IMG/VR virus record: IMGVR_UViG_3300032116_001621
Coordinates: 1-20,378 of that record
DNA from: a virus
Direction: 5' to 3' (one strand)
Length of the DNA stretch: 20,378 bases
Below are positions 808 to 18,321 of the stretch, piece after piece. The notes under the pieces were generated by a model. That model had not been told where the DNA came from, made no database searches, and was given only the letters and a program-made list of their open reading frames with translations. Both the position numbers and the translations under genes were made by a program. The first letter of the stretch is position 1; every line of letters starts with the position of its first letter.

Positions 808-1175
808 TTGCCCGCCCCGTCAGAGAACAGCGTGCGCCGTCCGTAATTGGTGGAGATCACCAGCGTATTCGCGCCGTTGATGGTGTCCGTTCCGCCTCGC
901 GTGATGGTGATGTTGTTCGCTCCCGCGTTGCCGCTGTCCTGAATGATGACAGACCGCCCCTTGGGTGTGCCGGTCGGTAGGGTCGGCGTACACGCCCCGC
1001 CCGAGGTGTCGCACAGCACAAAGGTCCATTCCGCTTCCAACGTGACCGTGCCGGAAGTCTCTTTCCAGAACGGCAGGTAGACCCGGTTCAGCAGGTTGTT
1101 AATGGCGTCCGCGACGTTCCACACCCACCGAGCGAAAGCCGATGGCGTGTTGTCGAACCGGGATGCGATGCTCAT
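792..1175 (-). CDS. Tail-associated structural protein (small, beta-rich C-terminus)
   Basis: The protein has 127 residues. The N-terminal ~40 residues (SRFDNTPSAFARWVWNVADAINNLLN) look helical. The rest is beta-rich, with GRSVIIQDSGNAGANNITI, a Gly/Thr/Asn-rich stretch and a final RRTLFSDGAGKWYSA. C-terminal segments of this kind recur in phage tail-tip and fibre proteins, where they form beta-sandwich or beta-prism ends; this assignment comes from pattern, not from a specific family match. The ATG overlaps the TGA of the upstream gp10-like gene as ATGA, and GGGGA precedes it. Its place between the tail hub and the GNAT-like gene supports a virion role. Confidence 0.75.
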   Translation of the reverse strand: MSIASRFDNTPSAFARWVWNVADAINNLLNRVYLPFWKETSGTVTLEAEWTFVLCDTSGGACTPTLPTGTPKGRSVIIQDSGNAGANNITITRGGTDTINGANTLVISTNYGRRTLFSDGAGKWYSA

Positions 1176-2635
1176 CGGTCCCCGGTGTACTCAAATTCGA
1201 TATCAACCCCCTGGGCGTGCTGCCAGAAGGTCTGCGACGGGATCGTGAGCCGCGCCCGGTGATACCTGCCATTCGAGCGCATGTTGCACTTGCCACGGTC
1301 GTTCATCACCGCTGCCGTCGTGTAAGTCGGGTCGCTGGCCTGCATGTAGCGCGAGCCGATTTCCACTTCACAGGTGGACACGCCTGCAACGAGAGGCCGC
1401 GCAGAAATCACCTTGGATGTGGTGTCGCCGCCCCATTCGGTCGTCTCGATAGTCGCTTCCAGCGCGAGGCCGTTGAAGAACCCGAACTTGTTGTTGCTGT
1501 CGAACCCGCCCAGGAGAACCGCGCCGGTCTGCCAGTAGACGCTATCGAGCGAGTAAGGCAGGAGGTCCAGATTGGTGGTGATGGCGTCCAGATCGTCCAG
1601 CGTGTAGCCGAAGGAATAGCCCTGCATCAGGAACTGCGCCGTTTGCTCGGCGTAGGACCATTTGTCCACAAAAGGGTTGTAGATTAGCTGGTGATTGGCC
1701 GCGCCCGAATTTCCCTGTCCCGGATATGACCACATGATGATGCCGAGAACCGGGTCCACGGACGCCGTGATGAGGTAGGTTAGCGCCCGGTCGCAGTCCG
1801 TCAGGAAGAAGTCGTTGACCCGCTGCGTGCCGATGTTCCGAACCGACACGCCGTCGCAGTACTCAAAGCCGTTGTCGGAGATGAAATACACACCCCCGCG
1901 ATGCTCCACGATGGAACCCGCCGCCATGCAGCCAACCGAGTTCTCACCCGACACCAGAGGCGCGAACGAGAAGATCAGCGGACTGCCGGGCTGGTAGTCC
2001 ATCCGCTGGATGGCCCGGCGCTGGAAGATCAGTCCGTATTCGCCGCCCACCAGGCCGAGGATCTCGCCGCCATCCGGCAGGATCTGGTCGCCGGCCAGCC
2101 CGACGCCGATGGTCCAGCTCGTGACGTTTCCCTGTGCACACCAGCGCAGCGCCGTCGAATCCGTCGAAAGGTTCCCCAGCACCAGGAACTGCTTCACGAT
2201 GGCGATGTGGTGGGCAATCGGCGGCGAACCGGATAGCGGCTCAAAGTCCGTTGACGACCCGACATCATAATACTGGGTGGCGTCCGTCCCGTTGACCGCG
2301 ACCACGTAGTCGCCGAAATCCACGAACCGCCATGCATCGTCCGTGGCGGTCGCGTAGGCAACGCCTGACGAGCGGGTGACCGTCTCCCATGTCTTCGCCG
2401 CCTGGAGCTTGTAGAGCGCCGTGGCGGTGCCGGCGAACACGTAGTTAGTTCCGTCCCGCTGGAAGCTGTAGGCACCCTTGGGAGCGGCAGCAAGGGCAGC
2501 GGTATATCCCGCCAGTGCTGCCAGAGGGCCGAACGTCCGCGCCTTCGGGACCACGTTGGTTGCGAGAGGCACGCCGGGGTTCTGAAAGTCAGGCTGATCC
2601 GGCAGGTAATCGGCAAACCCAAGGGTCTGCTTCAT
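1172..2635 (-). CDS. P22 gp10-like tail hub / packaged-DNA stabilization protein
   Basis: This is a 487-residue protein starting with ATG at 2635, which overlaps the preceding TGA as ATGA; GTG codons three residues upstream are possible but less likely starts. It begins MKQTLGFADYLPDQPDFQNPG, the kind of opening seen in gp10-like proteins of P22-type short-tailed phages. It then runs through repeated beta-strand units with aromatic and glycine turns (YVFAGTATALYKL, WRFVDFGDYVVAVNGTDATQYY, IVKQFLVLGNL, GGVYFISDNGFEYCDG, INPFVDKW-like segments), consistent with a beta-propeller. Proteins of this class form the tail hub that plugs the portal channel. It follows directly after a gp4-like adaptor gene, the expected order. 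The length is close to that of P22 gp10. Assignment is by recognition of sequence style and synteny. Confidence 0.8.
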   Translation of the reverse strand: MKQTLGFADYLPDQPDFQNPGVPLATNVVPKARTFGPLAALAGYTAALAAAPKGAYSFQRDGTNYVFAGTATALYKLQAAKTWETVTRSSGVAYATATDDAWRFVDFGDYVVAVNGTDATQYYDVGSSTDFEPLSGSPPIAHHIAIVKQFLVLGNLSTDSTALRWCAQGNVTSWTIGVGLAGDQILPDGGEILGLVGGEYGLIFQRRAIQRMDYQPGSPLIFSFAPLVSGENSVGCMAAGSIVEHRGGVYFISDNGFEYCDGVSVRNIGTQRVNDFFLTDCDRALTYLITASVDPVLGIIMWSYPGQGNSGAANHQLIYNPFVDKWSYAEQTAQFLMQGYSFGYTLDDLDAITTNLDLLPYSLDSVYWQTGAVLLGGFDSNNKFGFFNGLALEATIETTEWGGDTTSKVISARPLVAGVSTCEVEIGSRYMQASDPTYTTAAVMNDRGKCNMRSNGRYHRARLTIPSQTFWQHAQGVDIEFEYTGDR

Positions 2636-3273
2636 ATGCACCACGCCTGAATGGTATTGGTTGAGGTCTTCATGTCGGCCTTGCGGCGCAGCGAGTTGTA
2701 GGCCGACGCTTCAGCCGTGCAGAGGAAGTCCATGCGGTTCAGAGCATAGCCTTGGGCCTCGGCCATCGCGCCTGCGTCCTGCAAGTAGTTCATCTTCACC
2801 GCCGCCTTGGCCCGAGCGCGGATTAGCGCCTCGCCCTCATTGGTCCAATCGTTCGTGTCCGCATCCGCCGAGAGCGCGGTCTGCGATCCGATGTAGGAGA
2901 ACGTCAGCGTGTAGACCGCGTCGGGGATCGGATAGAGCCTGATCTGGCCCGCATAGAAGGCATAGCAGGACGGCTCCGCTTCATCCGTGCCGCTGTCGAT
3001 CTTGTCGAGGTATTCGTAGGTCACGCGGCGCATGATCTCGTAATCGCCGCTGATGGTGATCTTGAGCGAATCCTCGTCCAGAAAATTGGACGGGACCGCC
3101 ACATAGGGGATGTTCGCCACGGTCGAAGCCGTCGCCCTGATCTCGCTCCACGACCACCGCTGGTTCTCGTAATGGGCAATGGCCGTCAGAATTTCCAAAC
3201 CAATCTGCGTCGTCAAATCGCTGCGGTCCAACTCGTCCGCAATGCGGGTTTTCATGTCGCCGAATGTGCTCAT
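2632..3273 (-). CDS. P22 gp4-like head-tail adaptor protein
   Basis: The protein has 213 residues and starts MSTFGDMKTRIADELDRSDLTTQIGLEILTAI. This is the helical N-terminus typical of phage adaptor proteins that bind below the portal ring, where the opening is often a variant of M-x-x-[YF]-x-D-M-x-x-R-I-x-D-E. A helical region with HYENQRWSWSE follows. A beta-rich middle contains LYPIPDAVYTLTFSYIG, which matches the conserved segment of this family where physical quantities such as P-x-P-D are seen. The C-terminus is helical, running from EALIRARAKAAV. The ATG is preceded by CGGAGGGCGAC. The gene lies downstream of the capsid gene and overlaps the gp10-like gene by four bases. Its role would be joining portal to tail. 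Confidence 0.85.
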   Translation of the reverse strand: MSTFGDMKTRIADELDRSDLTTQIGLEILTAIAHYENQRWSWSEIRATASTVANIPYVAVPSNFLDEDSLKITISGDYEIMRRVTYEYLDKIDSGTDEAEPSCYAFYAGQIRLYPIPDAVYTLTFSYIGSQTALSADADTNDWTNEGEALIRARAKAAVKMNYLQDAGAMAEAQGYALNRMDFLCTAEASAYNSLRRKADMKTSTNTIQAWCI

Positions 3274-3291
3274 GTCGCCCTCCGGTGGTTA

Positions 3292-3311
3292 GGGGAGGCC
3301 GAAGCCTCCCC
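3292..3311 (-). terminator. 8-bp hairpin with UUCG tetraloop after the head-associated protein gene
   Basis: Read on the minus strand this is GGGGAGGC-TTCG-GCCTCCCC, a perfect eight-pair stem closed by a very stable UUCG loop. It begins 6 bases after the stop codon of the upstream gene (TAA at 3318-3320) and ends before the ribosome binding site of the gp4-like gene. It lacks a U-run, so it is more likely an mRNA 3'-end stabiliser, processing site or partial terminator than a full intrinsic terminator. Confidence 0.55.
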
Positions 3312-3317
3312 ACCCCA

Positions 3318-3722
3318 TTACTGGTCGTTGTCCGGGATGTAGCAGATGATCACTTCCGCCGTGCCGGCCGAGGCCGAGGCGGTCGAGGTCACCAGGCACT
3401 GAACGACAGTGTCGGACGCCACCAGCATGGTCACCGCTTCGTCCAAGGGGACGAGTGCGATGGTTGCCAGCGACCCGGAGGTCATCCACAGGTTCGTGCC
3501 GGAGTCGGTCGAGGGACCGATGTCCAGCACGTTGCTGCTGTTGCCGTTGAAGGCGACGTTGACGGAAACACCAGAGATGGCCTTGATCACCAGCGAACCA
3601 GCGGGAATGGTCCCGATGGTCACGGTGTCGCCGTCCATGGTGTAGTCGATCGACTTGCGCAGGTAGTGAACCTGCTGGGTCGGGTAGAGCCGGGCAGCGG
3701 TTCCGGCAGTTCCGGTAGGCAT
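3318..3722 (-). CDS. Probable head-associated structural protein (beta-rich)
   Basis: The protein has 134 residues and is rich in beta-branched residues, Gly and Ser, with no cysteine cluster or membrane segment. The central part reads as successive strands (GDTVTIGTIPAGSLVIKAISGVSVNVAFNGNSSNVLDIG, then SLATIALVPLDEAVTMLVA). Proteins of this style and size sit directly behind the major capsid gene in many phages and are often head decoration or minor head proteins. The function here is inferred from position and composition only. The ATG at 3722 is preceded by AAGGAG at good spacing and lies 12 bases after the capsid stop. The end is followed at once by a UUCG hairpin. Confidence 0.8.
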   Translation of the reverse strand: MPTGTAGTAARLYPTQQVHYLRKSIDYTMDGDTVTIGTIPAGSLVIKAISGVSVNVAFNGNSSNVLDIGPSTDSGTNLWMTSGSLATIALVPLDEAVTMLVASDTVVQCLVTSTASASAGTAEVIICYIPDNDQ

Positions 3723-3734
3723 GTCCGTTTCTCC

Positions 3735-4799
3735 TTACGCTGAAGCAGCAGCGTAGGACGACACGACGAAGGTGCCGAAATCCACGCTGTTGTAGACGGT
3801 CTTCTTCAGACCCCAGATGAGGCCGCCGGCCACGCCAAGCTTGTTGCCGTAGTCGAACGACTTCTCCGTCCAGTTCGCCGAGGAAACGCCCTCGGTGCCC
3901 TTGCCGAAGCCGATGGCAGCCGCCTGCGCGCCGCACAGCACCGCACGGCGAACCGTGGTGATGGGCGTGCCCGAGTTGGTGCCGACCGGGATGCGGGTGG
4001 ACTCGTGGAACACGACGCCGTTGTACTCGCCGAGGGCGCCCGTATAGATCGGGTTCTTCTTCGAGCCGTTGGCGGACAGCGCCGCCTTCTGGATGTCGAG
4101 CCACTGGCCGGTGGTGGTCGAGGTCCGCATGTCCCGCACCTGGTAGGGGTGCAGAAACATCACGTACTTCTCCTCGCCGTCCACCATGATCGGGCGGATC
4201 AGCGGGGTGGACAGCTTCACGCGAGTGACGACCTCGTCAACCCAGGTCAGGTTGAACGTGTCGCCGCTGTCGATCTGGCTTTCCGTGGTGGAGCCGGTCT
4301 CGGCGATCAGGAGCCGGGTCGAACTCGGCGCGATGGTCGCGTTGTGGCCGGTGTAGCGGGTGTCCGTCTGGTCGGTGACGCCGCAGATCTGGTTGAAGAA
4401 CGCGGTATCGACGCGGCCGGCCATCCAGTCCTTCAGGCCGCTCATGGCCTCGTTGCGGACGCTGAACGGAACGCGCTGTTCCGACATCTTGCCGCCCGAG
4501 CGGACAGCGTGACGGAGCTGGTTGATGTAGACGGCGTCGCTGTAGGTGGTCAGCGATTCCTCGTTGCCCTCCAGGATGCCGTCGCCTTCGACGCCGTCAC
4601 CCGCGAGCTGCATACGCAGACCGAAGGTGACCTTGTCGCCCGCGTTGGTGCCGAGTTCCTTCTTCTTGTGGATGAGGGAATCCGCGCTCTCGCCGATGAA
4701 CTTGCCGATGTAGGTCTGCTTGAGAACTTCCGCTTCAAGCTTCTTCGCCCACAACTGTACGGCAAGTGAGTCGTTCACTGCATAGCTGGTGTCAGCCAT
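3735..4799 (-). CDS. Major capsid protein, N4-gp56 family
   Basis: The 354-residue protein begins MADTSYAVNDSLAVQLWAKKLEAEVLKQTY. It contains features I associate with the N4-gp56 family of HK97-fold major capsid proteins: AGDKVTFGLRMQLAGDGVEGDGILEGNEE, then YSDAVYINQLRHAVRSGGKMSEQRV, and in the second half VMFLHPYQVRDMRTST with a following W-x-x-I/Q pattern. This protein assembles into the icosahedral shell, and its length fits the family. It follows the putative scaffold gene and precedes a probable head-associated gene. The start is firm, with AAGGAG at 7-base spacing before the ATG, the strongest initiation region in the window; that suits a protein needed in hundreds of copies. Confidence 0.93.
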   Translation of the reverse strand: MADTSYAVNDSLAVQLWAKKLEAEVLKQTYIGKFIGESADSLIHKKKELGTNAGDKVTFGLRMQLAGDGVEGDGILEGNEESLTTYSDAVYINQLRHAVRSGGKMSEQRVPFSVRNEAMSGLKDWMAGRVDTAFFNQICGVTDQTDTRYTGHNATIAPSSTRLLIAETGSTTESQIDSGDTFNLTWVDEVVTRVKLSTPLIRPIMVDGEEKYVMFLHPYQVRDMRTSTTTGQWLDIQKAALSANGSKKNPIYTGALGEYNGVVFHESTRIPVGTNSGTPITTVRRAVLCGAQAAAIGFGKGTEGVSSANWTEKSFDYGNKLGVAGGLIWGLKKTVYNSVDFGTFVVSSYAAASA

Positions 4800-4925
4800 G
4801 GTGTATCTCCTTGCTGGATGATGTGATTTGGGTTTGGTTCAGCCCTTGACGCTGGCTGCGGGCGAAGAAGTCGGTAACGGCGACTACACCGAAGCGTTTA
4901 ACGTCCGCATGACGAAGAAGGGTGG
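4800..4925. other. Non-coding gap between scaffold and capsid genes
   Basis: This 126-base stretch is one of the longer gaps inside the virion operon. Apart from the capsid ribosome binding site I see no gene in it. I looked for sigma70-like -35/-10 pairs on the minus strand and saw none that convinced me; weak inverted repeats are present but lack a U-run. A dedicated capsid promoter here is possible but unsupported. Confidence 0.5.
4807..4812 (-). promoter_or_regulatory. Strong ribosome binding site of the major capsid gene
   Basis: AAGGAG followed by TACACC-like spacer and ATG on the minus strand gives near-ideal spacing of 7 bases. It fixes the capsid start at 4799. Confidence 0.8.
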
Positions 4926-5759
4926 TTATTCCTTCATTACCTTGTCGAAGTTCGCCAGAAAGTCGTTGTCCGACATGGCGAGGAGGTCCGCAGGGGTGAG
5001 GCTGGCTTTCGCCTTGCCCGCGCCCGCGTTCCGGGTGGTTTCCTGTCCCCTGGCGATGGTTGCCAGTTTGGTAGTGGTGTCCTGCCCCGCAGCGGGCTTC
5101 TGGTAGCCCACGGCGGTCGCGGCCTGATAGAGCATGGCCGACAGGCTCATGCCCGTCTGACGCGCCCGTGCGGCGAAAGCATTGGCGTCCTGGTTCAGCA
5201 GGGCGTTGACTTCGTGATCCTGATAGCCCATCGCCCGGTACATGGTGGCGCGGTTCTCTGCCAGATGGTTGAGCGCGTCCGTGTAGTCCGGTGCCTGCGC
5301 CATGAACTGCTGCCGGTCACGCTCGACGTACTGGTTCCACGCCTGCGCTTCGGCCTGCAACTGCCGCTGCCGCTGATCTTCCTGTAACCGGCCTTCCACC
5401 GTGTCCAGCTTGTGGACGATGGCGCCGATGGGATCATCATCCAGCGACGGCGGCTTGGGTGCGTCCTCCTGCGCCTTGCGCGCTTCGGCGGCCTGGAACC
5501 GCTCCATCATCTGGCGCTGCCAGTTGCGGAGGTCGGCGGCTTCCTTCTCGATTGCCTGGCGCTTCAGCCGCTCCTCATGCAGCGCGGCATGGGGAACGAA
5601 TTTTGGCCTGCCGTCTTCCGTGGTTTCGGTCGCCTCGGTGGTTTCCGAGGCTTCCTCTGTCTCCTTGCCCTGTAACGCCGCGTCAAGCGCGGTATCGTCC
5701 ATCTGGGCAACGTCGGTCACTTCGGGGGCTTCACCCCCGTCATTTGGTAGCGTGCTCAA
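4926..5759 (-). CDS. Putative scaffolding protein
   Basis: The 277-residue protein is strongly acidic at the N-terminus (repeated Glu/Thr runs around residues 33-48). A long, highly charged Gln/Glu/Arg/Ala-rich helical region follows (residues ~60-150: HEERLKRQAIEKEAADLRNWQRQMMER and EGRLQEDQRQRQLQAEAQAW), probably coiled coil. The C-terminus carries SLTPADLLAMSDNDFLANFDKVMKE. The lack of a globular fold, the charge pattern and the place between portal and capsid genes are typical of phage scaffolding proteins, which guide procapsid assembly and leave before DNA fills the head. The start appears to be TTG at 5759, with AAGGA eight bases upstream; no in-frame ATG lies before residue 20. Confidence 0.8.
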   Translation of the reverse strand: MSTLPNDGGEAPEVTDVAQMDDTALDAALQGKETEEASETTEATETTEDGRPKFVPHAALHEERLKRQAIEKEAADLRNWQRQMMERFQAAEARKAQEDAPKPPSLDDDPIGAIVHKLDTVEGRLQEDQRQRQLQAEAQAWNQYVERDRQQFMAQAPDYTDALNHLAENRATMYRAMGYQDHEVNALLNQDANAFAARARQTGMSLSAMLYQAATAVGYQKPAAGQDTTTKLATIARGQETTRNAGAGKAKASLTPADLLAMSDNDFLANFDKVMKE

Positions 5760-5779
5760 GTTTGCATCCTTGCGATGAA

Positions 5780-5796
5780 GCCTGAATCGGTCAGGC
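5780..5796 (-). terminator. Short hairpin overlapping the portal stop codon
   Basis: Read on the minus strand it is GCCTGA-CCGAT-TCAGGC, a six-pair stem with a five-base loop that includes the portal TGA. There is no U-run, so transcription termination is unlikely; it may mark an mRNA end or be incidental. Confidence 0.25.
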
Positions 5797-7896
5797 AGCC
5801 GAACCCCGGAACCGGGGATTACCAGGAGGCATTGGCCTCAAGTCTCTGTGGACGCCCTGCTGGGCGTCGTGCATCTGCTTGGCAGCCTCAAGTTGTAGCT
5901 TGGGCTGCACCGTGCCGGCCTCTGCCGCGATCTTCTGCGCCTCGGCCTGCTTCTTTGCCGTGTCGGCCTGCGTGTTGGCGATCTCAGCCTCGACGCCCTG
6001 CTGCTCAAGCTGTTGGGCCTGCTGCTGCGCCTGTATCGCGTTCGGGTCAACCTGCGACTGTGCCATTTCCTTCAGTTTGGTCACCAGGCTTTCAGGCAGC
6101 GGCGTGTACGGCAGGATTTCCAGCATGATCTGGCCCGCCGCCGGCATCGCCATGATCGTTGGCATCATCGCCTGGATGATGCCCCACACCTTTTCCTTGT
6201 TGTTCGGGCTGGACGGCGCTTCATCCACAATCACATCGTACTCAAGCACGCCGTCCTGCTTCATCAGCGGGACATACTGCGCGCCCTCATCCCCGACGAC
6301 ACGCACAAGGCGACCATCGGCGATGTATTCATTAATCATCTTCAGCAGAACCCGCCCCTGCTCCTTCCGGTAGCGCCTTAGAGCATCAAACATCGTCGCC
6401 AGCACGGTCATGCCGGCCTGTTTGCGCTGCGCTTCCAGATACCCCGCCTGCTGACGGTCAGCGAGGCCCAACAGTTCCAGATTGACGCCCGACACATCCC
6501 GGATGGACGAAATGGCGTACTGCATCAGGTCGGCCAGTCCGTTGGGATAGGTGGACATCTGCTGTTCGCGGACGCCGTTCAGGTTCTCGACGATCTTGAC
6601 CTTGGTCGGGTTGGCCCAATCCTCCTGAAACTTCTTCGGATCAGCGACGGCGTTGCGCTCGACAAGCACGCCGCCCTTGGCGCTGTTGTTGATGATGTGC
6701 AGGATTGACGAGAAGAACTTGTTGGCCCACCGCTGCGGGTCTTTCATCACTCGCACGATGCCGTACCAGGTGTTCTCGTTCCTGTCCCGCGAGCCGGTGA
6801 TGAAGTTGTAGGTGAAGTACTCCCTGACCGGCGCGTAGCCTTCCTGAAGCACCGTGGACCCGGCAAAGAACGCCTGCTTGACGACCTTCCTGCGCTGCTT
6901 CACGTAGTCCCGGCCCTCTTGCAGAGCCTCGGGAACCTGCGGAAGCTGCATCACATCCTCGGCCCGCATCGTCTCGATACCAGGCATCGCGCCCTTCATG
7001 GTCGCGGCAGCGGCCTTCCACTGCTTCTCCATGTCCTTGCGGGCCTGTTCAGCCGCCGAGATCTCGTCATCGCGCTGCTTGCGGTAGACCTTGAACCGCT
7101 TCTCATCCAGCGGGACGATCTGGCCTGACGGGTCCGCAACCCGATAGACCGTCTCGTACTCGCACCACTGATATTCAGCCACGCGGACCTTGGACACGAT
7201 GGACGGCATCGGGCTGTCGCCGCCCTCGTAATACTCTTCACGGTAATCCGACTGCTTTGCACCGTCACCCGGCCCGGCGCCCCACGTATCGCGTGCGCTC
7301 GCAGACGGAATCTGTGCATCCGGCCAGTAGTACTTGAACTCCGATCTCGGGTAGTCCTTCACCCGGAACACATAACGCTTATCGTCAAGGTTGCGTTTGG
7401 TCGCGTTCGGGTCCGGGTACATCTCCATCGGGTCAACCCGGTCGATCACGATGTCGCCGTCGAGGTTCCGCGTGTAATCCAGATGCGTCTCCGTGCATCC
7501 CAGCCCGCAGATCACCATGTCCACGAATGCGTCGGATTCCTCGTCCTCGGCATCACATCCGTCCCGAACCCACATGGCCGTCGAGGTCATCAGCTCCGAG
7601 ACGCGGGCGTCACCTTCCTCTCTTGGGAAGTACTTGACCTCCTGACGGTTGCTTACCTCGCTTCCGGCCACGGCCTTTACGACCGTCTGAATGCGGTTGA
7701 ACTGCACGACCGGGCGCATCTCCCCGATCATCTTCGCCTTGTCCGTCGAGTCCCACTGGTCGTTGTCCACGAAGGAATAATCCTCCTTCGCCTGGGTGCG
7801 CCACTTGCTCCAATGCGAGAACGCCTCGTTCCAATGAGCGCGGGCCTGGTTCAGCAGGTCGTCGTTGCTGCCCTTGGTGTCGAGGTCGTCGTTCAT
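5791..7896 (-). CDS. Portal protein, P22 gp1-like
   Basis: The 701-residue protein matches the P22-type portal family in length and layout. An N-terminal helical part has WNEAFSHWSKWRTQAKEDYSFVDNDQWD and MRPVVQFNRIQTVVKAVAGSEVSNRQEVKYFP. The wing and stem region has YPDPNATKRNLDDKRYVFRVKDYPRSEF, YTYNFITG-like strands and NTWYGIVRVMKDPQRWANKFFSSILHIINNSAKGG. A segment with GVNLELLGLADRQQAGYLEAQRKQAG follows, and then a long Gln/Ala/Glu-rich C-terminal coiled coil (residues ~610-690) corresponding to the barrel of P22-like portals. Portals form the dodecameric vertex ring through which DNA is packaged. The gene lies 46 bases after the terminase stop and upstream of the scaffold gene. The ATG is preceded by GAGGTAGGCG. 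Confidence 0.93.
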   Translation of the reverse strand: MNDDLDTKGSNDDLLNQARAHWNEAFSHWSKWRTQAKEDYSFVDNDQWDSTDKAKMIGEMRPVVQFNRIQTVVKAVAGSEVSNRQEVKYFPREEGDARVSELMTSTAMWVRDGCDAEDEESDAFVDMVICGLGCTETHLDYTRNLDGDIVIDRVDPMEMYPDPNATKRNLDDKRYVFRVKDYPRSEFKYYWPDAQIPSASARDTWGAGPGDGAKQSDYREEYYEGGDSPMPSIVSKVRVAEYQWCEYETVYRVADPSGQIVPLDEKRFKVYRKQRDDEISAAEQARKDMEKQWKAAAATMKGAMPGIETMRAEDVMQLPQVPEALQEGRDYVKQRRKVVKQAFFAGSTVLQEGYAPVREYFTYNFITGSRDRNENTWYGIVRVMKDPQRWANKFFSSILHIINNSAKGGVLVERNAVADPKKFQEDWANPTKVKIVENLNGVREQQMSTYPNGLADLMQYAISSIRDVSGVNLELLGLADRQQAGYLEAQRKQAGMTVLATMFDALRRYRKEQGRVLLKMINEYIADGRLVRVVGDEGAQYVPLMKQDGVLEYDVIVDEAPSSPNNKEKVWGIIQAMMPTIMAMPAAGQIMLEILPYTPLPESLVTKLKEMAQSQVDPNAIQAQQQAQQLEQQGVEAEIANTQADTAKKQAEAQKIAAEAGTVQPKLQLEAAKQMHDAQQGVHRDLRPMPPGNPRFRGSAA

Positions 7897-7942
7897 CGCC
7901 TACCTCGTGCTGCCAGTAGTGGAGCCATGTCCAGATATCCAT

Positions 7943-9463
7943 TCATGCTGCCCAGGGCGAGAACTTAGGCCCGCTGGTCCCGTAATCGTCCCGCTTCTCT
8001 TCGTAGTGCTGCGGCCAGACGATCCTCAGATCCTCTTCGTAGATGCGGCTCAAGGCGTCCAGCATGTCGTCGTGACTTGCCACCGGAAACGCCTTGTATT
8101 CCTGCTCCACGAAGTCGAACACCAAGTCCCGCGTCAGCTTCTCGTAGTTCGTCCGGTGCAGGCTTTCCGGCAGATACCAGCGCCCCTGCTCGAAGTCGGG
8201 GATCAGCCGGCGTATCCGGTCGTTCTTGGGCATCTGCCCGCCGAGTTCCGTGATCTGGAAGCGGTAGTTCTCGCGGTTCTGCCGGTCGCGGATGTGCTCG
8301 ACATCCGCCATGGCGCCATATTTCTCGTAGCCCACGCCCATCGGCCTGTATTTGCGGTGCAGCGTGAACAGCGTATCCGCCCGCTCCGTCAGGTTGAGCC
8401 TGTCGCGGACGATGTCGATGACGTAAAAATTCCGGTCGTTTCCAAGTCCGACCACCCACATCGCCGTGTAGTCGCTGCCCTTCTTCTTCTCGCTGGCCGC
8501 GTCCACCAGGATATATCGGTTCATCGCCGCCCAATTGTCCGGGCGCCAGTATTTCAGCCAGTCGGCCTTGAAGCCCTGCGTGGCGTCGGCTACCGGGTTC
8601 TGTAGCATCTGGCACGCAAACGTGTACGGACCCATCTCCCGGCGCTTGGTGGCCAATAGTTCCGCCGGCATGTGGTATGGCTCACCGTCAACCTCGCCGT
8701 CCTTCGTGGCCGCGTAAATCCTCGGCGTCACAACGTCGCGGCGCATCATCTCGCCGTAGCTGTCCGCGAAGTGATACCGCGTGCCGATGTAGCGTGACGT
8801 TCCGCCCTGCGCCGTCAGGTTGCGCGATAGCTCCCAAGCCTCGGTCGTCTTGGCGATCTGCTCAGGCGTCGTCACCGACTCCCTGGTGACCGTGTCGTCG
8901 TACACCATGAGACGATAGTGCTTCGATGTCGGCTGGCCATCCACAAGGCCCCACGCCTCGACCGTGCCCTCTTTCGGGTTGCCCTTGCGCTTGACGATGA
9001 TGCCGTCGTCTTCCGACCACTTCGGCGCGTCTTTTTGCGGGTTCGCGTAAAGCACATCGGGAAACAGATCCTTCAGCAGCTCGTTGGCCTCGAACTCCCG
9101 CTTGATCTGCCGTAGAAACCCTTTCGCAATCGGCCTGGTGTGGCTGAAGATCCCGACGGTGATGTCAGGGTCTTTCAGGATGTCCTGTATCGTCAGGGCG
9201 AACGTGATGATCGTGGACTTGTAGTGTTCCCGCGCCCACAGGTCCAAATGACCATTCGGCGCTTCCTGGACCTCGCGGCACCGCTCAAAGCACCAGTCGT
9301 TGTCAGCGTCCTTGCGGCCCAAACCGTAGACCAGCAGGAAGAACAGATCCTCAGTGCACAGGTTCCGTAGGTGGCCGTTCCTCTCGGTCTCTAAGCACAT
9401 CTGCAAGCCAGTCAGCACTTTGAGATACGCCGATCTGTCCGGAATGAGTGTGCTTAACGTCAC
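7943..9463 (-). CDS. Terminase large subunit
   Basis: The 506-residue protein is the packaging motor ATPase and nuclease. A deviant Walker A reads WAREHYKST (residues 76-84). Walker B is RLMVYDD (184-190), with Asp189/Asp190 as acidic residues. A coupling-type motif, GTSRYIGTRYHFAD, follows at 221-234. The C-terminal RNase H-like nuclease has ILVDAASEKKKGSDYTAMWV (Asp321 and Asp331) and HDDMLDALSRIYEE (Asp466/Asp469), the expected metal-binding acids. The start is uncertain: GTG at 9463, with AAGGTGG upstream, gives a 113-base overlap with the small subunit gene. ATG at 9400 would shorten the overlap but has no clear Shine-Dalgarno. The length suits a terminase. The neighbours (small subunit upstream, portal downstream) agree. 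Confidence 0.93.
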   Translation of the reverse strand: MTLSTLIPDRSAYLKVLTGLQMCLETERNGHLRNLCTEDLFFLLVYGLGRKDADNDWCFERCREVQEAPNGHLDLWAREHYKSTIITFALTIQDILKDPDITVGIFSHTRPIAKGFLRQIKREFEANELLKDLFPDVLYANPQKDAPKWSEDDGIIVKRKGNPKEGTVEAWGLVDGQPTSKHYRLMVYDDTVTRESVTTPEQIAKTTEAWELSRNLTAQGGTSRYIGTRYHFADSYGEMMRRDVVTPRIYAATKDGEVDGEPYHMPAELLATKRREMGPYTFACQMLQNPVADATQGFKADWLKYWRPDNWAAMNRYILVDAASEKKKGSDYTAMWVVGLGNDRNFYVIDIVRDRLNLTERADTLFTLHRKYRPMGVGYEKYGAMADVEHIRDRQNRENYRFQITELGGQMPKNDRIRRLIPDFEQGRWYLPESLHRTNYEKLTRDLVFDFVEQEYKAFPVASHDDMLDALSRIYEEDLRIVWPQHYEEKRDDYGTSGPKFSPWAA

Positions 9464-9755
9464 CCGTCACCACCTTGCGTTCTGCGTAGATGTCTGGACG
9501 CCGCGACTTCAGCAGGAAGATCAGCAGCGTGTCGGATTTATCCTTTGCCCGCTCAAGGGCGATGTCCTCCAGAACGGTCGTGCCCCGGTCGATGCATCGC
9601 TCCCAGCTTTTGCGGAACACATCGTCCTGATCCCTCCAGCGGTAGACCGTCTTGCGGTCAACATCGGCCAGCTTTACCGCCTCGCTGACCGTGCTGCCCG
9701 ACTGTAGCGCCCGGAGAAACTGAACGCGCTTTTTGGTCGCGGCTTTTGCGTTCAC
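9351..9755 (-). CDS. Terminase small subunit
   Basis: The 134-residue protein has an N-terminal helix-turn-helix (residues ~8-45: RVQFLRALQSGSTVSEAVKLADVDRKTVYRWRDQDDVFRKSW), the layout of phage small terminase subunits that recognise the packaging site. Next comes an oligomerisation-type helix with TTVLEDIALERAKDKSDTLLIFLLKSRRPDIYAERK; the segment LLIFLLKSRRPD followed by Tyr is characteristic of this protein family. The C-terminal tail is polar. The start is GTG at 9755, overlapping the stop of a possible 17-codon frame as GTGA, with GAGGAA just before it at tight spacing. It lies directly upstream of, and overlaps, the large subunit gene. Confidence 0.88.
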   Translation of the reverse strand: MNAKAATKKRVQFLRALQSGSTVSEAVKLADVDRKTVYRWRDQDDVFRKSWERCIDRGTTVLEDIALERAKDKSDTLLIFLLKSRRPDIYAERKVVTGDVKHTHSGQIGVSQSADWLADVLRDREERPPTEPVH

Positions 9756-9805
9756 TTCCTCAGTTCCATGGGTTCCGACCCGCGCCCGCCATTCTTCTTG
9801 CCCAT
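9752..9805 (-). CDS. Possible 17-residue coupling microgene
   Basis: The peptide would be MGKKNGGRGSEPMELRK. Its ATG overlaps the stop of the upstream structural gene by one base (TGATG), and its TGA overlaps the terminase small subunit GTG (GTGA), so it fits exactly between two genes. Either it is a real translated leader that couples the genes, or it is a chance frame in a 49-base gap. The Lys/Gly-rich start resembles openings of some phage terminase small subunits, so a past frameshift fusing it to the next gene is also possible. Confidence 0.3.
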   Translation of the reverse strand: MGKKNGGRGSEPMELRK

Positions 9806-10431
9806 CAGACCCGCTCCACGATGTACAGTTTCAGCGTGCCAGAGGTGAACGCTGTCACGTTGAGGCGCACACCGTAAATCGGGGTGGTAATCGGCAGGAA
9901 GGTGTCCGCAGTCTTTGCGCTGCCGGCAGATTCAGTCCAGCCGACGAACGCATCATCCGCAGCGGTAAAGGTCAGCGGCTCCATCGCGTATTCCACGCTG
10001 AAGGTGCACGTACCGGAGATGTCCACCGCAACACCCGTGGCGAAGGTGGAGTAACGGTTCTTGACAGGGAACCATGCGGTTTTCAACAGGCCGGTCACAC
10101 CCGCCTCAACAGCCGCACCCGTTCCCGCGTCCACCGCGATCTGAGTGATGGTCTTGAAAAACGCTGTGCTGGATACCGTGCTGGCATTGACGCCCGTCAC
10201 CGTGCCTGTCTGGGCAACGCCGTACCTGTCCGTGCCGGTAATCGTAAACACACGGGCCGCGATGTTGGACCCCGAGTAGATCGACACCGGCTGGGGATCG
10301 GTAAGCGTCACGCTGCCGCCCGAGGCAAGCGCGCCCGTAATCGTCAGGTTGCCCGCGCCGCCTGGTGTCTGCGATGCGCTGATGCCGTCCCGGTCAAGGG
10401 CTGTCGGCGTGATTGTGGCCTGAAGACTCAT
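9805..10431 (-). CDS. Phage structural protein of unknown role (beta-rich)
   Basis: The 208-residue protein begins MSLQATITPTALDRDGISASQTPGG and consists of beta-strand-rich Thr/Val/Gly sequence, with GTDRYGVAQTGTVTGVNASTVSSTAFFKTITQIAVDAGTG in the middle. That segment, G-T-D-R-x-G followed by x-V-T-G-V-N-A-S-T-V, is a pattern I associate with uncharacterised virion proteins of podoviruses. No enzymatic motif, cysteine cluster or signal peptide is seen. The ATG at 10431 has GGAG eight bases upstream, and the gap to the preceding gene is three bases. It lies between small tail proteins and the terminase genes; a virion role is inferred from context. Confidence 0.75.
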   Translation of the reverse strand: MSLQATITPTALDRDGISASQTPGGAGNLTITGALASGGSVTLTDPQPVSIYSGSNIAARVFTITGTDRYGVAQTGTVTGVNASTVSSTAFFKTITQIAVDAGTGAAVEAGVTGLLKTAWFPVKNRYSTFATGVAVDISGTCTFSVEYAMEPLTFTAADDAFVGWTESAGSAKTADTFLPITTPIYGVRLNVTAFTSGTLKLYIVERV

Positions 10432-10434
10432 GGC

Positions 10435-10641
10435 TTACTCCACCCTCGGAATTGCGGTCCAGGTTGTTGACTGCGAGTTCTGATTGGTCCAGTCGGTCGT
10501 TACGCCGTTCTGCGCTGACCAGTTCGTCGTGACCGGCGACTGAGGCGTCCATGTTGCGATGTCACCCACAGCGCCAAAGCCTAGCAGGACCACGTTGGCG
10601 ATGGAGCCAGGCGTAAAACCCAGCGTTGCTATCGCCGTCAT
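10435..10641 (-). CDS. Small phage structural protein (Trp/Thr/Gln-rich repeats)
   Basis: The 68-residue protein has a hydrophobic Gly/Ala-rich first half (LGFTPGSIANVVLLGFGAVGDI). The second half repeats a short unit: TTNWSAQN, TTDWTNQN, STTWTAIP, i.e. T-x-W followed by polar residues with Gln-Asn, about every nine or ten residues. Such tryptophan-bearing repeats suggest a small beta-structured virion or tail-attached protein, but no family function is known to me. The ATG overlaps the stop of the fibre gene as ATGA. Confidence 0.7.
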   Translation of the reverse strand: MTAIATLGFTPGSIANVVLLGFGAVGDIATWTPQSPVTTNWSAQNGVTTDWTNQNSQSTTWTAIPRVE

Positions 10642-11591
10642 GTGGCGCGGGCCGAGCTGGTGGGCGTGGTGGCGCTGTCAATCGTGATGGTCGCCGCTGT
10701 CGTGCTGCCGTCAATCCTCTTGACGGTGATGGTTGTGCCGCTGATGGCGAAGTCGTACAGCCGCTGCATGGTCAGGAACTGCGCCTGCGCCAGTGTGGGG
10801 GCTGCGCCGTCCGTCGAGTAGCTTTCCGTCATCTGTGTGGTCAGGACCGCAGCGGCGATGCTGGCCGCGCTCGGGATGTCGCCCGTAGCCGCAGGAGCCG
10901 CCGGCAGGTTGTCGGTCTTGGCCTTGATTGCAGCAATTTCCGTGTCGAGATAGCCCGCGATGGTCGAGAGAGTGGCAGGCAGTGTCGTGCCGGTGTCCAC
11001 CAGGATGTCATCCACGATGCCGTCCACCGTCGCCAGAGCGGCAGCGGTGGCCAGCCCGCTCTGGATTTCCGCCACCGCGTCCGTGGCAATGGCAGCCGCA
11101 TCAATAGCGCCAGCGGCAAACTTGGCCGCAGTAATCGCGCCCGTCGCAATCGCGCCTGCGTTGATTGCGTTGTCGGCAATGGCATCCGCGTCGATGGCGT
11201 CCGTCGCAATCGCCGCTGCGGTAATCAGGCCCGCCGTGATCTCATCCGCGTGGACTTGCAACTTGTCCGCACCAAACATGGAATCCCACACGTTGGCGGG
11301 AACAACCATGAAGTTCCGCCATGCCGGGCAAGCGCCGCTCTCATTCACAGCGACAACCAGCGAGCCAAGGGTGTTGGTGTCGGTCGTATCGAGCGGCACG
11401 CCGTACCAGCCATTTTCCATGTGGGTGGCGCCGGTCGCGTTGTTGGTCTGCGCGAAGGCCCCGCCGTTCTTCGACAGGCGGATGTCAGCCTGCGAGATGG
11501 TCAGGGCCGTCTCTGCGGTCACGCCGTCCGTTGAATCCACGAATGGACCCACAGGCACCGTTACCGCCGTTGATTGCTTCAGCCAGGTCAT
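10638..11591 (-). CDS. Tail fibre-like protein with pentad repeats
   Basis: The 317-residue protein begins MTWLKQSTAVTVPVGPFVDSTDGVTAETALTISQADIRLSKNGG, a beta-rich N-terminal domain common in phage tail fibre and appendage proteins (residues ~1-110). A central stretch (residues ~117-175) repeats a five-residue unit ending in Ala-Ile: AAAIA, TDAID, ADAIA, DNAIN, AGAIA, TGAIT, AAKFA, AGAID and so on. A helical region with DTEIAAIKAKTDNLP and a C-terminal beta segment (TTITVKRIDGSTTAATITID) follow. The regular pentad suggests an elongated trimeric shaft. The gene sits between two other appendage genes with four-base ATGA overlaps on both sides. Confidence 0.8.
   Translation of the reverse strand: MTWLKQSTAVTVPVGPFVDSTDGVTAETALTISQADIRLSKNGGAFAQTNNATGATHMENGWYGVPLDTTDTNTLGSLVVAVNESGACPAWRNFMVVPANVWDSMFGADKLQVHADEITAGLITAAAIATDAIDADAIADNAINAGAIATGAITAAKFAAGAIDAAAIATDAVAEIQSGLATAAALATVDGIVDDILVDTGTTLPATLSTIAGYLDTEIAAIKAKTDNLPAAPAATGDIPSAASIAAAVLTTQMTESYSTDGAAPTLAQAQFLTMQRLYDFAISGTTITVKRIDGSTTAATITIDSATTPTSSARAT
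11067..11243 (-). repeat. Pentad-repeat region encoded in the fibre gene
   Basis: This covers codons ~117-175 of the fibre-like protein: about eleven or twelve in-frame five-codon units whose fourth and fifth positions are usually Ala-Ile, with Lys-Phe once and Ala-Val at the end. At DNA level the plus strand shows recurring GCAAT(C/G)GC and GCG-rich words. Such units expand and contract readily. Confidence 0.7.
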
Positions 11592-12280
11592 GAACGCATC
11601 ATCCTGTAGTGGTGGTCCTTGACGGCTAGAGCGGCGCCCGAGCCATCCAGTTCAAGAATGATGGCCGAACCACCAAGCGTGCCGCCGTAGGTGCTGCCCC
11701 ACGTTATGGTCGTGCCGGTAAACCCGCTGTCCCTGGTCGCCACCTCCACGCCTGTCGACGGTGTCGGTTGGCCGATATCGAGACGCTCCGTCCAGCTCGT
11801 CGGCGCGGTCATCGTTGCCGCGTTGCGACCGTTGAATACGGCGCCGATTGTCATGTTCCCGGTCAAGGCCGATGATGCAAATGTCGGCGCCGGAGTTGTA
11901 GCCGACGCCTCGTTTTCCACCTTCGCCGACTGCCGTACCGCAGTTGCCCCCGTTTTGGCCATGCCCGAAACGGCAATAATACCAATCGAGGTGGCGGTGT
12001 TGGACCCGGTCGCCGTCGTGATCGTATGCAGCACCGCGCTCGATACAAGCTGGTCTCGCACGTAAACCGCGCCGATGTCTGCCGATGTGTCCCAAAGAGC
12101 GGTATTGACCTGAGTATAGGTGCCGCCCTGGTCGTCGCTGACCGTGGCGGAGGTATTTGTGTTTGTGCTCGCGTTGTAGGCGACTACGAGAAGATCGCCA
12201 ACTGCCGGGGTTATGGCAGCAGTGCGGTTGCCAGTACCGGAAGTGCCGCCACCGGATGCTGCGGATGCGTAAGCCGCCAT
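11588..12280 (-). CDS. Tail or appendage structural protein
   Basis: The 230-residue, Thr/Ser/Ala/Gly-rich protein is almost entirely beta-type. It contains AVGDLLVVAYNASTNTNTSATVSDDQGGTYTQVN near the start, a pattern (G-D-L-L-V-V followed by S-D-x-x-G-x-x-Y) found in many phage tail-associated beta-sandwich domains. GSAIILELDGSG near the end looks like the closing strands of one domain. A short basic tail (KDHHYRMMRS) follows. The ATG at 12280 lies three bases after the stop of the spike gene, with only a weak Shine-Dalgarno, so coupling is likely. The end overlaps the fibre gene as ATGA. The exact function is unknown. Confidence 0.75.
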   Translation of the reverse strand: MAAYASAASGGGTSGTGNRTAAITPAVGDLLVVAYNASTNTNTSATVSDDQGGTYTQVNTALWDTSADIGAVYVRDQLVSSAVLHTITTATGSNTATSIGIIAVSGMAKTGATAVRQSAKVENEASATTPAPTFASSALTGNMTIGAVFNGRNAATMTAPTSWTERLDIGQPTPSTGVEVATRDSGFTGTTITWGSTYGGTLGGSAIILELDGSGAALAVKDHHYRMMRS

Positions 12281-12283
12281 CGT

Positions 12284-13426
12284 TTAAAACCCGAACGCTG
12301 CCGCTTCAGGACACGCCGCCATGTTGGCCTTGATGTTCGCCAGCGCCGGGTCGAGCATCTCAGCCACCAGGCGCGCCTCCAGCGCGGTGCGCTGCCATGG
12401 TCCGACCGTGCGGGCCAACGACGCCCGCAGGCCGGAACACGGCTCCACGGCCAGCCCAGGCGGCAGCTCGACGTTGATGCCTGGCACCACCAGCGCGTGC
12501 TGCGGATAGGCCGACCCGATGTTTGCCAGCCATGGCTTTGCAGCAAGCAGCGCGGGCGGGATGACATCGCCGCAGTCCTGATAGTAGATCGACGAACCGG
12601 CAATCGCGCTGCTCTCCTTGGCTGAGAACGCGCTGTTCTGCTTGTCGTTGCCGATGACCGTCTCGCATCCGATAAATGCCCAATGGCTAGGCGACTGCGG
12701 CTCGGTCGAGGAATAGAACTCGTAGGTCTTGTTGTTGTTCAGCGTGACGCAATTCACGAACGCGCCGGTCACGCCGTAGTGGATGGCCGGCGAGCGGTAA
12801 GAGTTGCTGGCCAGCAGGCAGCGGTAGAACAGGATGTCCTTGGAGTTGACGCCCAGCAACAATCCGGTCGAGTGGTCGCCCTCGGGATGCCCGGCAGCCT
12901 TCAGGCACTCGGCGAGGATGCACTCCTCGACAGTCACGCCGCGCACCGGGTAACTGGGCTTGTGCCAGAAATCCAGCAAACCGTCCACAGCCCACGCCAG
13001 CGTCAGGTTCCGCAGGACCACGTTCTCGATGGGGGCGGCACCCTGCGAGCCGATGGTGATGCAATCGCGGTCGTTCTTTGCTGGCCCGGTCGCACGGTCG
13101 CCTGGCAGCAGCCGCAGATGCCGCACCTCGACGTTGCCGCGCTCGATGGTCAGCTTGCCGCCGGTGATGCTCACCGGCGACGGCGCGGTCTCCCCGGCGA
13201 TGATGATCCCCGGATCGGTGATCTTGGTCGCGCCCTGCATGTTGGAGCCGTCAGGCTTGTAGCTCCAGTCGATGATACCGCCCACGGCGAACTTGATGAT
13301 CGCGCCGGGGTTGCTGTTCGGCATGCTGTGCAGGATGGTCCGCAACGTGCCCGTGCCCTCCGGCGCCAAGCTGGTTACGGTGTATTCTTGTGTCGGAACC
13401 CAGTTGGGTGTCGCACCTACGGGCAT
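12284..13426 (-). CDS. Pectate lyase-like beta-helix tail spike / depolymerase
   Basis: The 380-residue protein resembles the polysaccharide lyase family 1 beta-helix. GTLRTILHS and PGAIIKFAVGGII (residues ~25-52) form the first coil. IIIAGETAPSPVSITGGKLTI follows, then VEVRHLRLLPGD, RDCITI, IENVVLRNLTLAWAVDGLLDFW (residues ~133-154, the position of the D-x-x-D calcium-type motif), VTVEECILAECL and YRCLLASNSYRSPAIH (201-216, with Arg211-Ser-Pro where lyases have the catalytic Arg-x-Pro). No signal peptide is present. As the first gene of the virion operon it probably encodes a tail spike that degrades host surface polysaccharide. CGGAG precedes the ATG. Whether it is active, and its substrate, are inference. 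Confidence 0.82.
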   Translation of the reverse strand: MPVGATPNWVPTQEYTVTSLAPEGTGTLRTILHSMPNSNPGAIIKFAVGGIIDWSYKPDGSNMQGATKITDPGIIIAGETAPSPVSITGGKLTIERGNVEVRHLRLLPGDRATGPAKNDRDCITIGSQGAAPIENVVLRNLTLAWAVDGLLDFWHKPSYPVRGVTVEECILAECLKAAGHPEGDHSTGLLLGVNSKDILFYRCLLASNSYRSPAIHYGVTGAFVNCVTLNNNKTYEFYSSTEPQSPSHWAFIGCETVIGNDKQNSAFSAKESSAIAGSSIYYQDCGDVIPPALLAAKPWLANIGSAYPQHALVVPGINVELPPGLAVEPCSGLRASLARTVGPWQRTALEARLVAEMLDPALANIKANMAACPEAAAFGF

Positions 13427-13441
13427 GTAGACTCCGAACGC

Positions 13442-13468
13442 AAAAAAGGCCCGCCGAGGCGAGCCTTT
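13442..13468 (-). terminator. Intrinsic terminator or attenuator just before the spike gene
   Basis: On the minus strand AAAGGC-T-CGC-CTCG-GCG-G-GCCTTT folds into a six-pair plus three-pair stem with one internal mismatch, and the 3' arm runs into TTTTTT. This is a good Rho-independent terminator for leftward transcription. It ends 15 bases before the spike start codon, leaving room only for the ribosome binding site. On the plus strand the U-run is only three bases. Confidence 0.75.
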
Positions 13469-13489
13469 GGGAACTATGTCGAGAAAGAG

Positions 13490-13526
13490 AGAGGGGACAG
13501 CACCATGGCGATGGTGTGTCCCCTCT
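13490..13526. repeat. Long imperfect inverted repeat (16-17 base arms)
   Basis: The left arm (13490-13506) reads AGAGGGGACAGCACCAT and the right arm (13511-13526) reads ATGGTGTGTCCCCTCT. They pair over 16 positions with one bulged G, around the loop GGCG. On the plus strand it is followed by TTTCGTTTC, on the minus strand by CTCTTTCTC. It may be a bidirectional terminator, an operator or another structured RNA element. Confidence 0.7.
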
Positions 13527-13675
13527 TTCGTTTCCCGCGAACCCGGCGAGATAGTCCATCGCTCCGGGTGCGACGGGTAGAGACCTGCTACGGCCTCCGT
13601 CTCACAAACGAACCGTACAGCGTGGATTCCCGCCGTTCAAGAGCGATGGTCGCAACCGAACCATGAGGTATCATC
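13527..13675. other. Intergenic stretch upstream of the plus-strand small gene
   Basis: I see no convincing gene on either strand in this stretch beyond the leader of the plus-strand gene. It is the most likely place for promoters that drive the virion operon leftward and the small gene rightward, but no strong -35/-10 pair stands out. Confidence 0.5.
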
Positions 13676-13861
13676 ATGAAGATCGGACGCAACGCAGGCA
13701 CCGGGAAGTTCATCCCGGTCAAGGAAGCGCAGACCCGCAATGGGGAAGGCTGCGAGACCTCATTGCCTCATAAATCAAACGCACTCGATCCTCGGGCAAA
13801 TCAAACTCATCGTTGGTTGAGCACAACTCAGCCACACCCGCCTCGATCATCTCAGCGGTAA
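13676..13861 (+). CDS. Small plus-strand phage protein, probably with a replaced C-terminus
   Basis: The frame starts MKIGRNAGTGKFIPVKEAQTR and has 61 codons. GAGGT lies eight bases before the ATG. From memory, the first ~21 residues match the opening of a family of very short proteins (roughly 30-40 residues, G-R-x-x-x-T-G-x-F-x-x-V-x-x-A-x-x-R) found in proteobacteria and their prophages. That family usually continues with Arg-Pro-x-Thr-Thr and a Val-Glu-x-x-Lys end. Here the sequence after the Arg codon (about 13738) is unrelated, low in family character, and lies antisense to the 62-residue minus-strand gene. The simplest reading is a real gene whose 3' end was replaced by recombination. 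It is the only plus-strand gene I accept, and its function is unknown. Confidence 0.5.
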   Translation: MKIGRNAGTGKFIPVKEAQTRNGEGCETSLPHKSNALDPRANQTHRWLSTTQPHPPRSSQR

Positions 13862-13907
13862 TCTCGATCTCAGTGTCTGGAAGCGTCGGCCTGTCGGCCA
13901 TTTTCAT
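13719..13907 (-). CDS. Small acidic protein of unknown function
   Basis: The 62-residue protein begins MKMADRPTLPDTEIEITAEMIEAGVAELCSTNDEFDLPEDRVRLIYEAMRS. The shape I-T-x-E-M-I-E-A-G followed by R-V-x-x-I-Y-E-A-M is one I have seen in small uncharacterised phage and prophage proteins; no function is known. The last dozen residues (RSLPHCGSALP) lie antisense to the conserved part of the plus-strand small gene and may be foreign to the family. The ATG at 13907 overlaps the stop of a 17-codon frame as ATGA. It is the last gene of the early minus-strand group before the terminator. Confidence 0.65.
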   Translation of the reverse strand: MKMADRPTLPDTEIEITAEMIEAGVAELCSTNDEFDLPEDRVRLIYEAMRSRSLPHCGSALP

Positions 13908-13957
13908 ATCCCGGACGAGCCTTTGAGGGGCGCAGAAAGCGCCATTAGCAGCATCAT
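13904..13957 (-). CDS. Possible 17-residue leader microgene
   Basis: The peptide would be MMLLMALSAPLKGSSGI, hydrophobic at the start. GGGAGG lies about ten bases before the first of two adjacent ATG codons. The stop overlaps the next gene's ATG as ATGA. It contains a five-pair inverted repeat (GGCGC-TTTCT-GCGCC) within its frame. A leader that couples translation is plausible; chance is also plausible. Confidence 0.3.
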   Translation of the reverse strand: MMLLMALSAPLKGSSGI

Positions 13958-13977
13958 GCCATTCTCACCTCCCGCTG

Positions 13978-14475
13978 TCAACGCACTCTCCGCTTGACCG
14001 CGTGATAGGCGTCCAGCCCGTCGATCAGCCACAACCGGATCAGCGCGTCCCGGTGGTTCATCCGATCCGCGATGGCCGAGATGGTCAGCCCGTCCACCGC
14101 GACATGCAGGCACACACGCTGACAGGGGAGCCTGTGGGCCTGGACCAGATCAGCCGCCCACTCCCGGTAGCGCAACACGCATCTGCGCTCCCAGTGCCCC
14201 TCTCCGCGCTCGCCAGGGTCACTCCGCATCAGGGAGGACAGCTTGGGCGTCACGGGTTCCGTCACCAACCTGAAACCCGCCTCGATAGCCTGCAAGCTGG
14301 CAAACTGCCCGCCGTCGATCACGCCACGATCCAGCAGCATCTCGCTGGCGTGCTTGGTCACACTGGCCTTGGCGAGCGTCTCTGGCGTGCCGCCAACCCG
14401 GCGCGTGATCTTCTCCTCGTAGGCTTGCTGGCGCTCGACCTTGAGCCTGGCGCGCACGGTGTCGTCGTAGGTCAT
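13978..14475 (-). CDS. Unknown protein with C-terminal helix-turn-helix-like segment
   Basis: I start this gene at ATG 14475, because GGAGG lies nine bases upstream, giving 165 residues beginning MTYDDTVRARLKVERQQAYEEK. An alternative ATG at 14508 overlaps the previous gene by seven bases and would add 11 residues. The N-terminal part is helical and charged. The middle contains SDPGERGEGHWERRCVLRYREWAADL. The C-terminus (VDGLTISAIADRMNHRDALIRLWLIDGLDAYHAV) has the spacing of a helix-turn-helix with a recognition helix around NHRDALIRLWL. This suggests DNA binding, perhaps regulation, but I do not recognise a family. The neighbours are small unknown genes downstream of the replication initiator. 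Confidence 0.7.
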   Translation of the reverse strand: MTYDDTVRARLKVERQQAYEEKITRRVGGTPETLAKASVTKHASEMLLDRGVIDGGQFASLQAIEAGFRLVTEPVTPKLSSLMRSDPGERGEGHWERRCVLRYREWAADLVQAHRLPCQRVCLHVAVDGLTISAIADRMNHRDALIRLWLIDGLDAYHAVKRRVR

Positions 14476-18169: not shown

Positions 18170-18321
18170 GATCCCCGCCCCCTCTCGGCCTTGCGCCGCT
18201 CGACGTACTGCCTTGCCGTCTCGCCCTCTCGGCGGTTGGCGAGGTAGTCGGCGCGTGCGGCTTCCAGGGCGACCTCGTAGCTGCGGGCGCCGTCGATGCG
18301 CGGGCAATACTCCTGCGTCAC
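18166..18321 (-). CDS. Small 51-residue gene with GTG start between two methyltransferase genes
   Basis: The frame encodes 51 residues beginning MTQEYCPRIDGARSYEVALE and ending RKAERGRGS, mostly helical and strongly charged with many Arg and Glu. GTG overlaps the upstream methyltransferase stop as GTGA, and AGGAGG lies seven bases before it (18329-18334). Its TGA overlaps the next gene's ATG as ATGA. Precise overlap at both ends plus a perfect Shine-Dalgarno make it a convincing gene despite its size. No family is recognised. It might be an accessory to one of the methyltransferases or unrelated. Confidence 0.75.

Follow-up and report, generated by a model that had tools for sequence, protein, structure and literature searches.

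Control of late genes by antitermination is an already known kind of regulation. In the lambdoid phages the parts of the Q system follow one another as regulator gene, promoter, leader, terminator and late genes, an order shared by the viral locus described here, where the predicted leader is longer than the roughly 190 nt of lambda. The element bound by Q lies in the promoter spacer, and AlpA, an antiterminator of Pseudomonas aeruginosa, likewise has its element between -10 and -35 (both as cited in PMC11150451). In the Caulobacter gene transfer agent the antiterminator is GafZ, with which transcription can run past a terminator. GafZ, the counterpart of the C-terminal portion of GafA, depends on an element located between -10 and -35 and associates with both polymerase and Nus factors (PMC11150451). 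GafA homologues are annotated as DUF6456 (PMC9638019, PMC9765227), and one study describes GafA as an activator in contact with the omega subunit (PMC9638019). In the Sinorhizobium phage phiLM21, gp34 is annotated as a transcription antiterminator and is reported in all phiLM21-like prophages (PMC12429752).

The window, that is, the whole 20,378-nt stretch of viral DNA analysed here, carries all of its called genes on the minus strand (codon-usage gene caller). A DnaB-type helicase gene, a primosome-like gene, a 79-aa ORF and a 165-aa gene precede a gap of 551 nt (13977-13427), behind which the spike gene opens a nearly gapless minus-strand run with genes for terminase, portal and major head protein (Table 1). 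No gene was called in the gap by the codon-usage caller and a tRNA search found none; the proper unit of study is the entire gap. Elsewhere in the window, a probable DNA methyltransferase gene with a DPPY motif, seen by eye, lies at 18318-19043 (-).

Table 1. Features of the gap and its surroundings, in window coordinates.
Feature	Coordinates	Strand	Basis
Intrinsic terminator T2 with U-run	13442..13468	-	Consensus scan, folding, letters rechecked
Hairpin T1, the inverted repeat first noticed	13487..13529	-	Repeat search, folding
Candidate late promoter, TTGACA-17-CATGAT, extended TG	13953..13981	-	Promoter scan, letters rechecked
Candidate protein-binding element GCGGGAGG in G-rich promoter spacer	13968..13975	-	Motif match; putative function
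Predicted leader RNA, about 505 nt	13442..13946	-	Start placed 7 nt after -10
Candidate antiterminator gene, 165 aa	13978..14475	-	Codon-usage call, relatives, profile match, fold model
Spike gene, pectate-lyase-like, first after T2	12284..13426	-	PHROG 27797 (3.3e-8), gene call
Virion operon, spike to window's end	2..13426	-	Gene calls; portal, major head protein and terminase matches

The initial annotation had placed a minus-strand intrinsic terminator 15 nt before the spike start codon, and this terminator, T2, was recovered. Its stem (13468-13445) has 10 pairs, six of them G-C, the hairpin folded in isolation reaches -17.6 kcal/mol (z -3.15), and a U-run (13447-13442) follows it on the side facing the virion genes but not on the other. 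Between the end of the U-run and the spike ATG at 13426 lie 15 nt (13441-13427), which agrees with the further claim that a promoter has no room there; the ribosome site of the spike gene, GGAG at 13435-13432, falls in this stretch, beyond T2. A simple consensus scan of the whole window revealed no terminator-like excess (13 sites against a shuffle mean of 13.9). T2 is the sole site on either strand of the window with a dG of -13.5 or below, a stem-loop of at most 30 nt and TTTT immediately behind the stem. When the strand was shuffled 100 times by dinucleotides, 8 shuffles held a site of this strength; T2 is a real outlier directly before the spike gene. Just upstream of T2, the 16-nt inverted repeat noticed previously is also real (13484-13499 / 13517-13532, 88% complementary) and forms part of a longer hairpin, T1, which folds at -37.2 kcal/mol (z -6.1), is more stable than T2 and was equalled by none of the shuffles, but is not a classical U-tract terminator. 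Since its tail is pyrimidine-rich without a clean U-run, T1 is the weaker terminator candidate.

Only one site in the window scored 10/12 or better on either strand in the promoter scan. It overlaps the end of the 165-aa gene, starting at the last coding base and taking in the TGA stop codon (13980-13978) within its -35 TTGACA. Its -10 matches the consensus at only 4 of 6 positions. A transcript from this site would cross T1 and T2, which gives a candidate start to the virion transcripts that the initial annotation had required to begin upstream and pass the terminator. Element GCGGGAGG fits a motif seen after other genes of the same family, TTGAC-N1-5-GGG; the string TTGAC-N-GGG has a chance expectation of about two per strand of the window. 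From the candidate promoter it is about 480 nt to the first good terminator, as against about 20 nt in relatives. Two ORFs in this region were rejected as genes, a 62-aa frame in the leader (13907-13719) and a plus-strand frame (13676-13861), neither of which was called or matched any family at a convincing E-value. The plus-strand frame, antisense to the leader, begins MKIGRNAGTGKFIPVKEAQ, has a plausible ribosome site and found no match in phage records.

No antiterminator gene had been recognised at first, and the 165-aa protein has no convincing Pfam match and none in phage records or PADLOC; the gene directly upstream of the gap is nonetheless the best candidate. Its open frame reaches back beyond 14514. 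No close relatives of the protein were found in viral contigs or phage records, and the same holds for two members of its family (L212 and L202). The open frames of loci fetched through the terminase did contain relatives, in L017, L103, L062 and L015, all of them encoded ahead of the terminase gene, and a family profile was built from these. This profile was positive in 19 of 385 alphaproteobacterial genomes and then, in three orders, in 4 of 347 genomes, three of these four being weak (2.6e-5 to 6e-5), in 23 of 25 and in 4 of 10; the last two counts include four and two genomes already positive among the 19. Nine genomes of terminase matches yielded one weak match (0.0095), and in the order of G281 the family gene was present in G281 alone of two genomes. 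No model in Pfam or NCBIfam describes the family. Five of 24 members match PHROG 21451, a group without an assigned function (best 0.0006), and the family profile found no match among solved-structure sequences.

The order with 23 positive genomes (L193, L194, L198, L204, L223-L247) carries the gene as a single copy in 21 of the 23. In L194 it is followed by small terminase, terminase, DUF4055 portal and P22-type coat genes, and a side reading of these loci is that of a near-universal prophage remnant or an element resembling a gene transfer agent. Besides the proteins of L194, 18 of 42 listed downstream proteins were scanned. The gene is followed by a terminase in L194, L199, L200 and, weakly, L208, by an SU10-type adaptor (L205), by a small-terminase-like protein (L203) and by head or tail genes (L211, L210), while non-virion genes lie behind it in L206 and L207. 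With downstream genes so varied, the family gene stands ahead of virion genes from more than one type of phage, and some copies lie outside such a context. In L199 a dCTP deaminase gene (6902-8047, -) lies between the family gene and the terminase. The closest relative by identity in A6, L196 (32%), has neither late genes behind it nor the module described below.

Many family genes share a compact arrangement at their end, in which the stop codon is followed by a promoter-like site with a CGGGG-type spacer and then by an intrinsic terminator about 20 nt past the -10. The parts, their order and the recurrence of this arrangement in relatives were observed directly. Promoter and terminator together followed the family gene in 9 of 26 loci, compared with 5 of 338 other gene ends in the same loci, in a test that ignored the spacer motif; the p-value (1.8e-8) serves, like the others for the module, as a guide only, because the criteria were fixed after the first loci had been inspected and the loci share ancestry. 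The 26 loci are not independent, since they include, along with the window, five chosen by terminase (L015, L017, L062, L099, L103) and four from the later-sampled order (L193, L194, L198, L204). The pair was also present in 16 of 20 further loci, all from one bacterial order, and the spacer motif TTGAC-N1-5-GGG in 10 of 26 loci (6 of 326 controls) and in 15 of the 20 further loci. The motif shares its first base with the end of the coding sequence in the window and in L062, L194, L198, L212, L242 and L243. Excluded from the module counts were L245, whose contig ends at the match and which was also left out of the comparison of the L099 protein with the family, L216, with too little DNA downstream, and L213-L215, L252, L253 and L255; L254, read by eye later on, has a promoter-like site and a terminator, and L255 has no terminator. 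A fixed-gap pattern sought in four records proved too strict, leaving the window unmatched and giving one match and one control match in G010.

Of the 26 first-set loci, 17 lack the module, including the window; L195, L196, L197, L199 and L201 are examples of loci without it. The window was negative in the promoter and terminator test because no promoter-proximal terminator is present. It has the Q-type layout of a regulator gene next to a promoter and a terminator ahead of the virion genes, without the terminator close behind the promoter that relatives have. Either the promoter-proximal terminator has been lost and the gene-proximal T2 does its work, an option suggested by the tandem terminators of L062, L103 and L205, or early transcripts supply the late genes. 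In L062, L205 and L015 a terminator likewise ends about 40 nt before the next gene, the corresponding distance in the window being 15-18 nt.

We propose, with a probability of roughly two in three, that the locus is a late switch like those of Q and GafZ, in which transcripts stop at T1/T2 until the candidate protein lets polymerase through. The resemblance to an antitermination switch between early and late genes had been pointed out in the initial annotation, and the evidence that now favors it is comparative, namely the family gene, the module and the virion genes. The 551-nt gap would be the control region for late transcription. Host polymerase would start at 13981-13953, directly behind the candidate gene for the antiterminator, and produce a leader RNA some 500 nt long that terminates at T2, perhaps helped by T1. 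Transcripts of the early genes arriving from upstream would stop at T1/T2 as well, and the virion genes would therefore stay off. As the 165-aa protein accumulates, its sigma-4-like domain would bind the G-rich promoter spacer and the protein would load onto polymerase, after which T1/T2 would be ignored and the whole virion operon transcribed. Promoter activity, termination, binding, loading and read-through are the steps that we infer. Counting against the proposal are the missing promoter-proximal terminator, the length of the leader, the imperfect -10 and the family loci that lack the module or have non-virion genes behind them. A plainer account, rather improbable in our estimate, is that T1/T2 merely end the early operon, with the virion genes living on partial, unregulated read-through and the candidate gene otherwise employed. 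Leaky terminators are common, and the compact module seen in relatives is missing from the window, both of which favor such an account; the best promoter-like site in the window, however, lies right behind a gene whose relatives have promoter-terminator modules in that very place.

A possible link between the candidate family and described antiterminators came from comparing profiles. The family profile aligned with that of DUF6456 at a probability of 80% (E 1.3e-5, 113 columns, 8% identity), the latter profile comprising five sequences only. The window protein itself has no match to PF20057 (DUF6456), and one of 24 family members matched at E 0.077. A bridge is provided by phage contig L099, whose terminase is 66% identical to that of the window over the best segment: it encodes a protein matching DUF6456 at 1.1e-13 and the candidate family at 0.0065, and the gene sits in the place of the candidate gene and is followed by TTGACA-17-CATACT and a terminator. 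The L099 protein has three 100% copies in viral contigs (L249-L251) and none in phage records. The DUF6456 model matched the Caulobacter control genome; matches were present in 0 of the 19 family-positive genomes and in 5 of 9 others. The family may be distantly linked to DUF6456, the domain of GafA and probably of GafZ.

The structure model of the 165-aa protein is poor (mean pLDDT 58). Residues 91-165 gave a best Z of 10.6 over 71 residues at 1.9 A, with sigma region 4 in the top rows, a score that helical models can reach, as the tool warns, by common arrangement; residues 1-90 were barely covered by the fold comparison. The C-terminal part is thus modelled as a sigma-like helix-turn-helix with a sigma-region-4 fold. 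Such a domain would also suit a classical activator at the promoter, with strong late transcription outrunning leaky terminators, and the account of GafA as an activator contacting omega (PMC9638019) points the same way. This we hold to be somewhat less probable than a simple end of the early operon, as activation alone would be futile in the many relatives with a terminator about 20 nt behind the -10, and GafZ antiterminates (PMC11150451). For lambda Q and Q21, the fold listing was filled by sigma factors and the profile search of solved-structure sequences found no match. Phage_antitermQ (PF06530) was absent from the window and appeared in 2 of 46 records at E <= 0.1, neither over the cut-off. 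A terminase relative of the window encodes, upstream of late genes, a Q-like (PF06530) protein below the family cut-off (L007:964-1335).

It is quite improbable that the gap marks a module boundary, the spike gene having been acquired with a stray terminator and late transcription coming from an unrecognised promoter. The spike has a single weak match (E 0.077) among the open frames of the fetched loci, the T1 core found 0 matches in viral contigs and no similar DNA was found in phage and plasmid records, all of which favors such an origin; against it, terminators close ahead of the following gene occur in L062, L205 and L015 too. Attenuation by RNA alone, through a riboswitch, a leader peptide or alternative hairpins, might be read into the long structured leader with its 62-aa ORF, but is the least probable reading, given that Rfam returned no match at the gathering threshold, that mutually exclusive hairpins are ruled out by T1 and T2 not overlapping and forming together in the minimum-energy fold, and that the ORF was not called.

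The antitermination switch proposed here resembles the GafZ/GafA system in its distant profile match, in the sigma-like helix-turn-helix, in the element within the promoter spacer and the terminator ahead of most structural genes (PMC11150451), and in the DUF6456 gene occupying the same place in phage L099. It differs in that the window protein has no DUF6456 match of its own and no known dependence on GafY or IHF. The promoter at which GafZ acts is distant from the GafZ gene, whereas promoter and gene adjoin in the window, and termination in Caulobacter involves a set of 150-bp repeats that follow the first gene. We would give even odds to a broader proposal, that DUF6456/GafZ and the candidate family form one superfamily of Q-like antiterminators serving late transcription in alphaproteobacterial phages and prophages, with a compact promoter-terminator cassette at the regulator's own stop codon and with GafA and GafZ as domesticated members. 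Searches of open-licence papers showed GafZ, but no description of the candidate family, of a cassette at the regulator's stop codon or of the link to GafZ. Should these readings be right, a phage protein family so far unnamed in Pfam would have a function open to testing and a DNA signature that can be read, and GafZ would have relatives in phages with gene, promoter, site and terminator within about 100 nt. The compact phage cassettes would then lend themselves to in vitro and structural studies, and would hint at the source from which gene transfer agents acquired their late regulator.

In phiLM21 the genes run DnaB, primosomal gene, DnaA-like helix-turn-helix gene, gp34, HNH gene and terminase, so that gp34 has the same place in the gene order as the candidate gene. 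It differs in having no Pfam match and in its scores with the family profile and the DUF6456 profile, which do not exceed about 3 bits; by the profiles used, gp34 belongs neither to the candidate family nor to DUF6456, and by eye it looks NusG-like. The DnaA-like gene (PF08299, 4.3e-11) lies directly before gp34 (L256:2399-3390), which recalls the GafY-GafZ pair.
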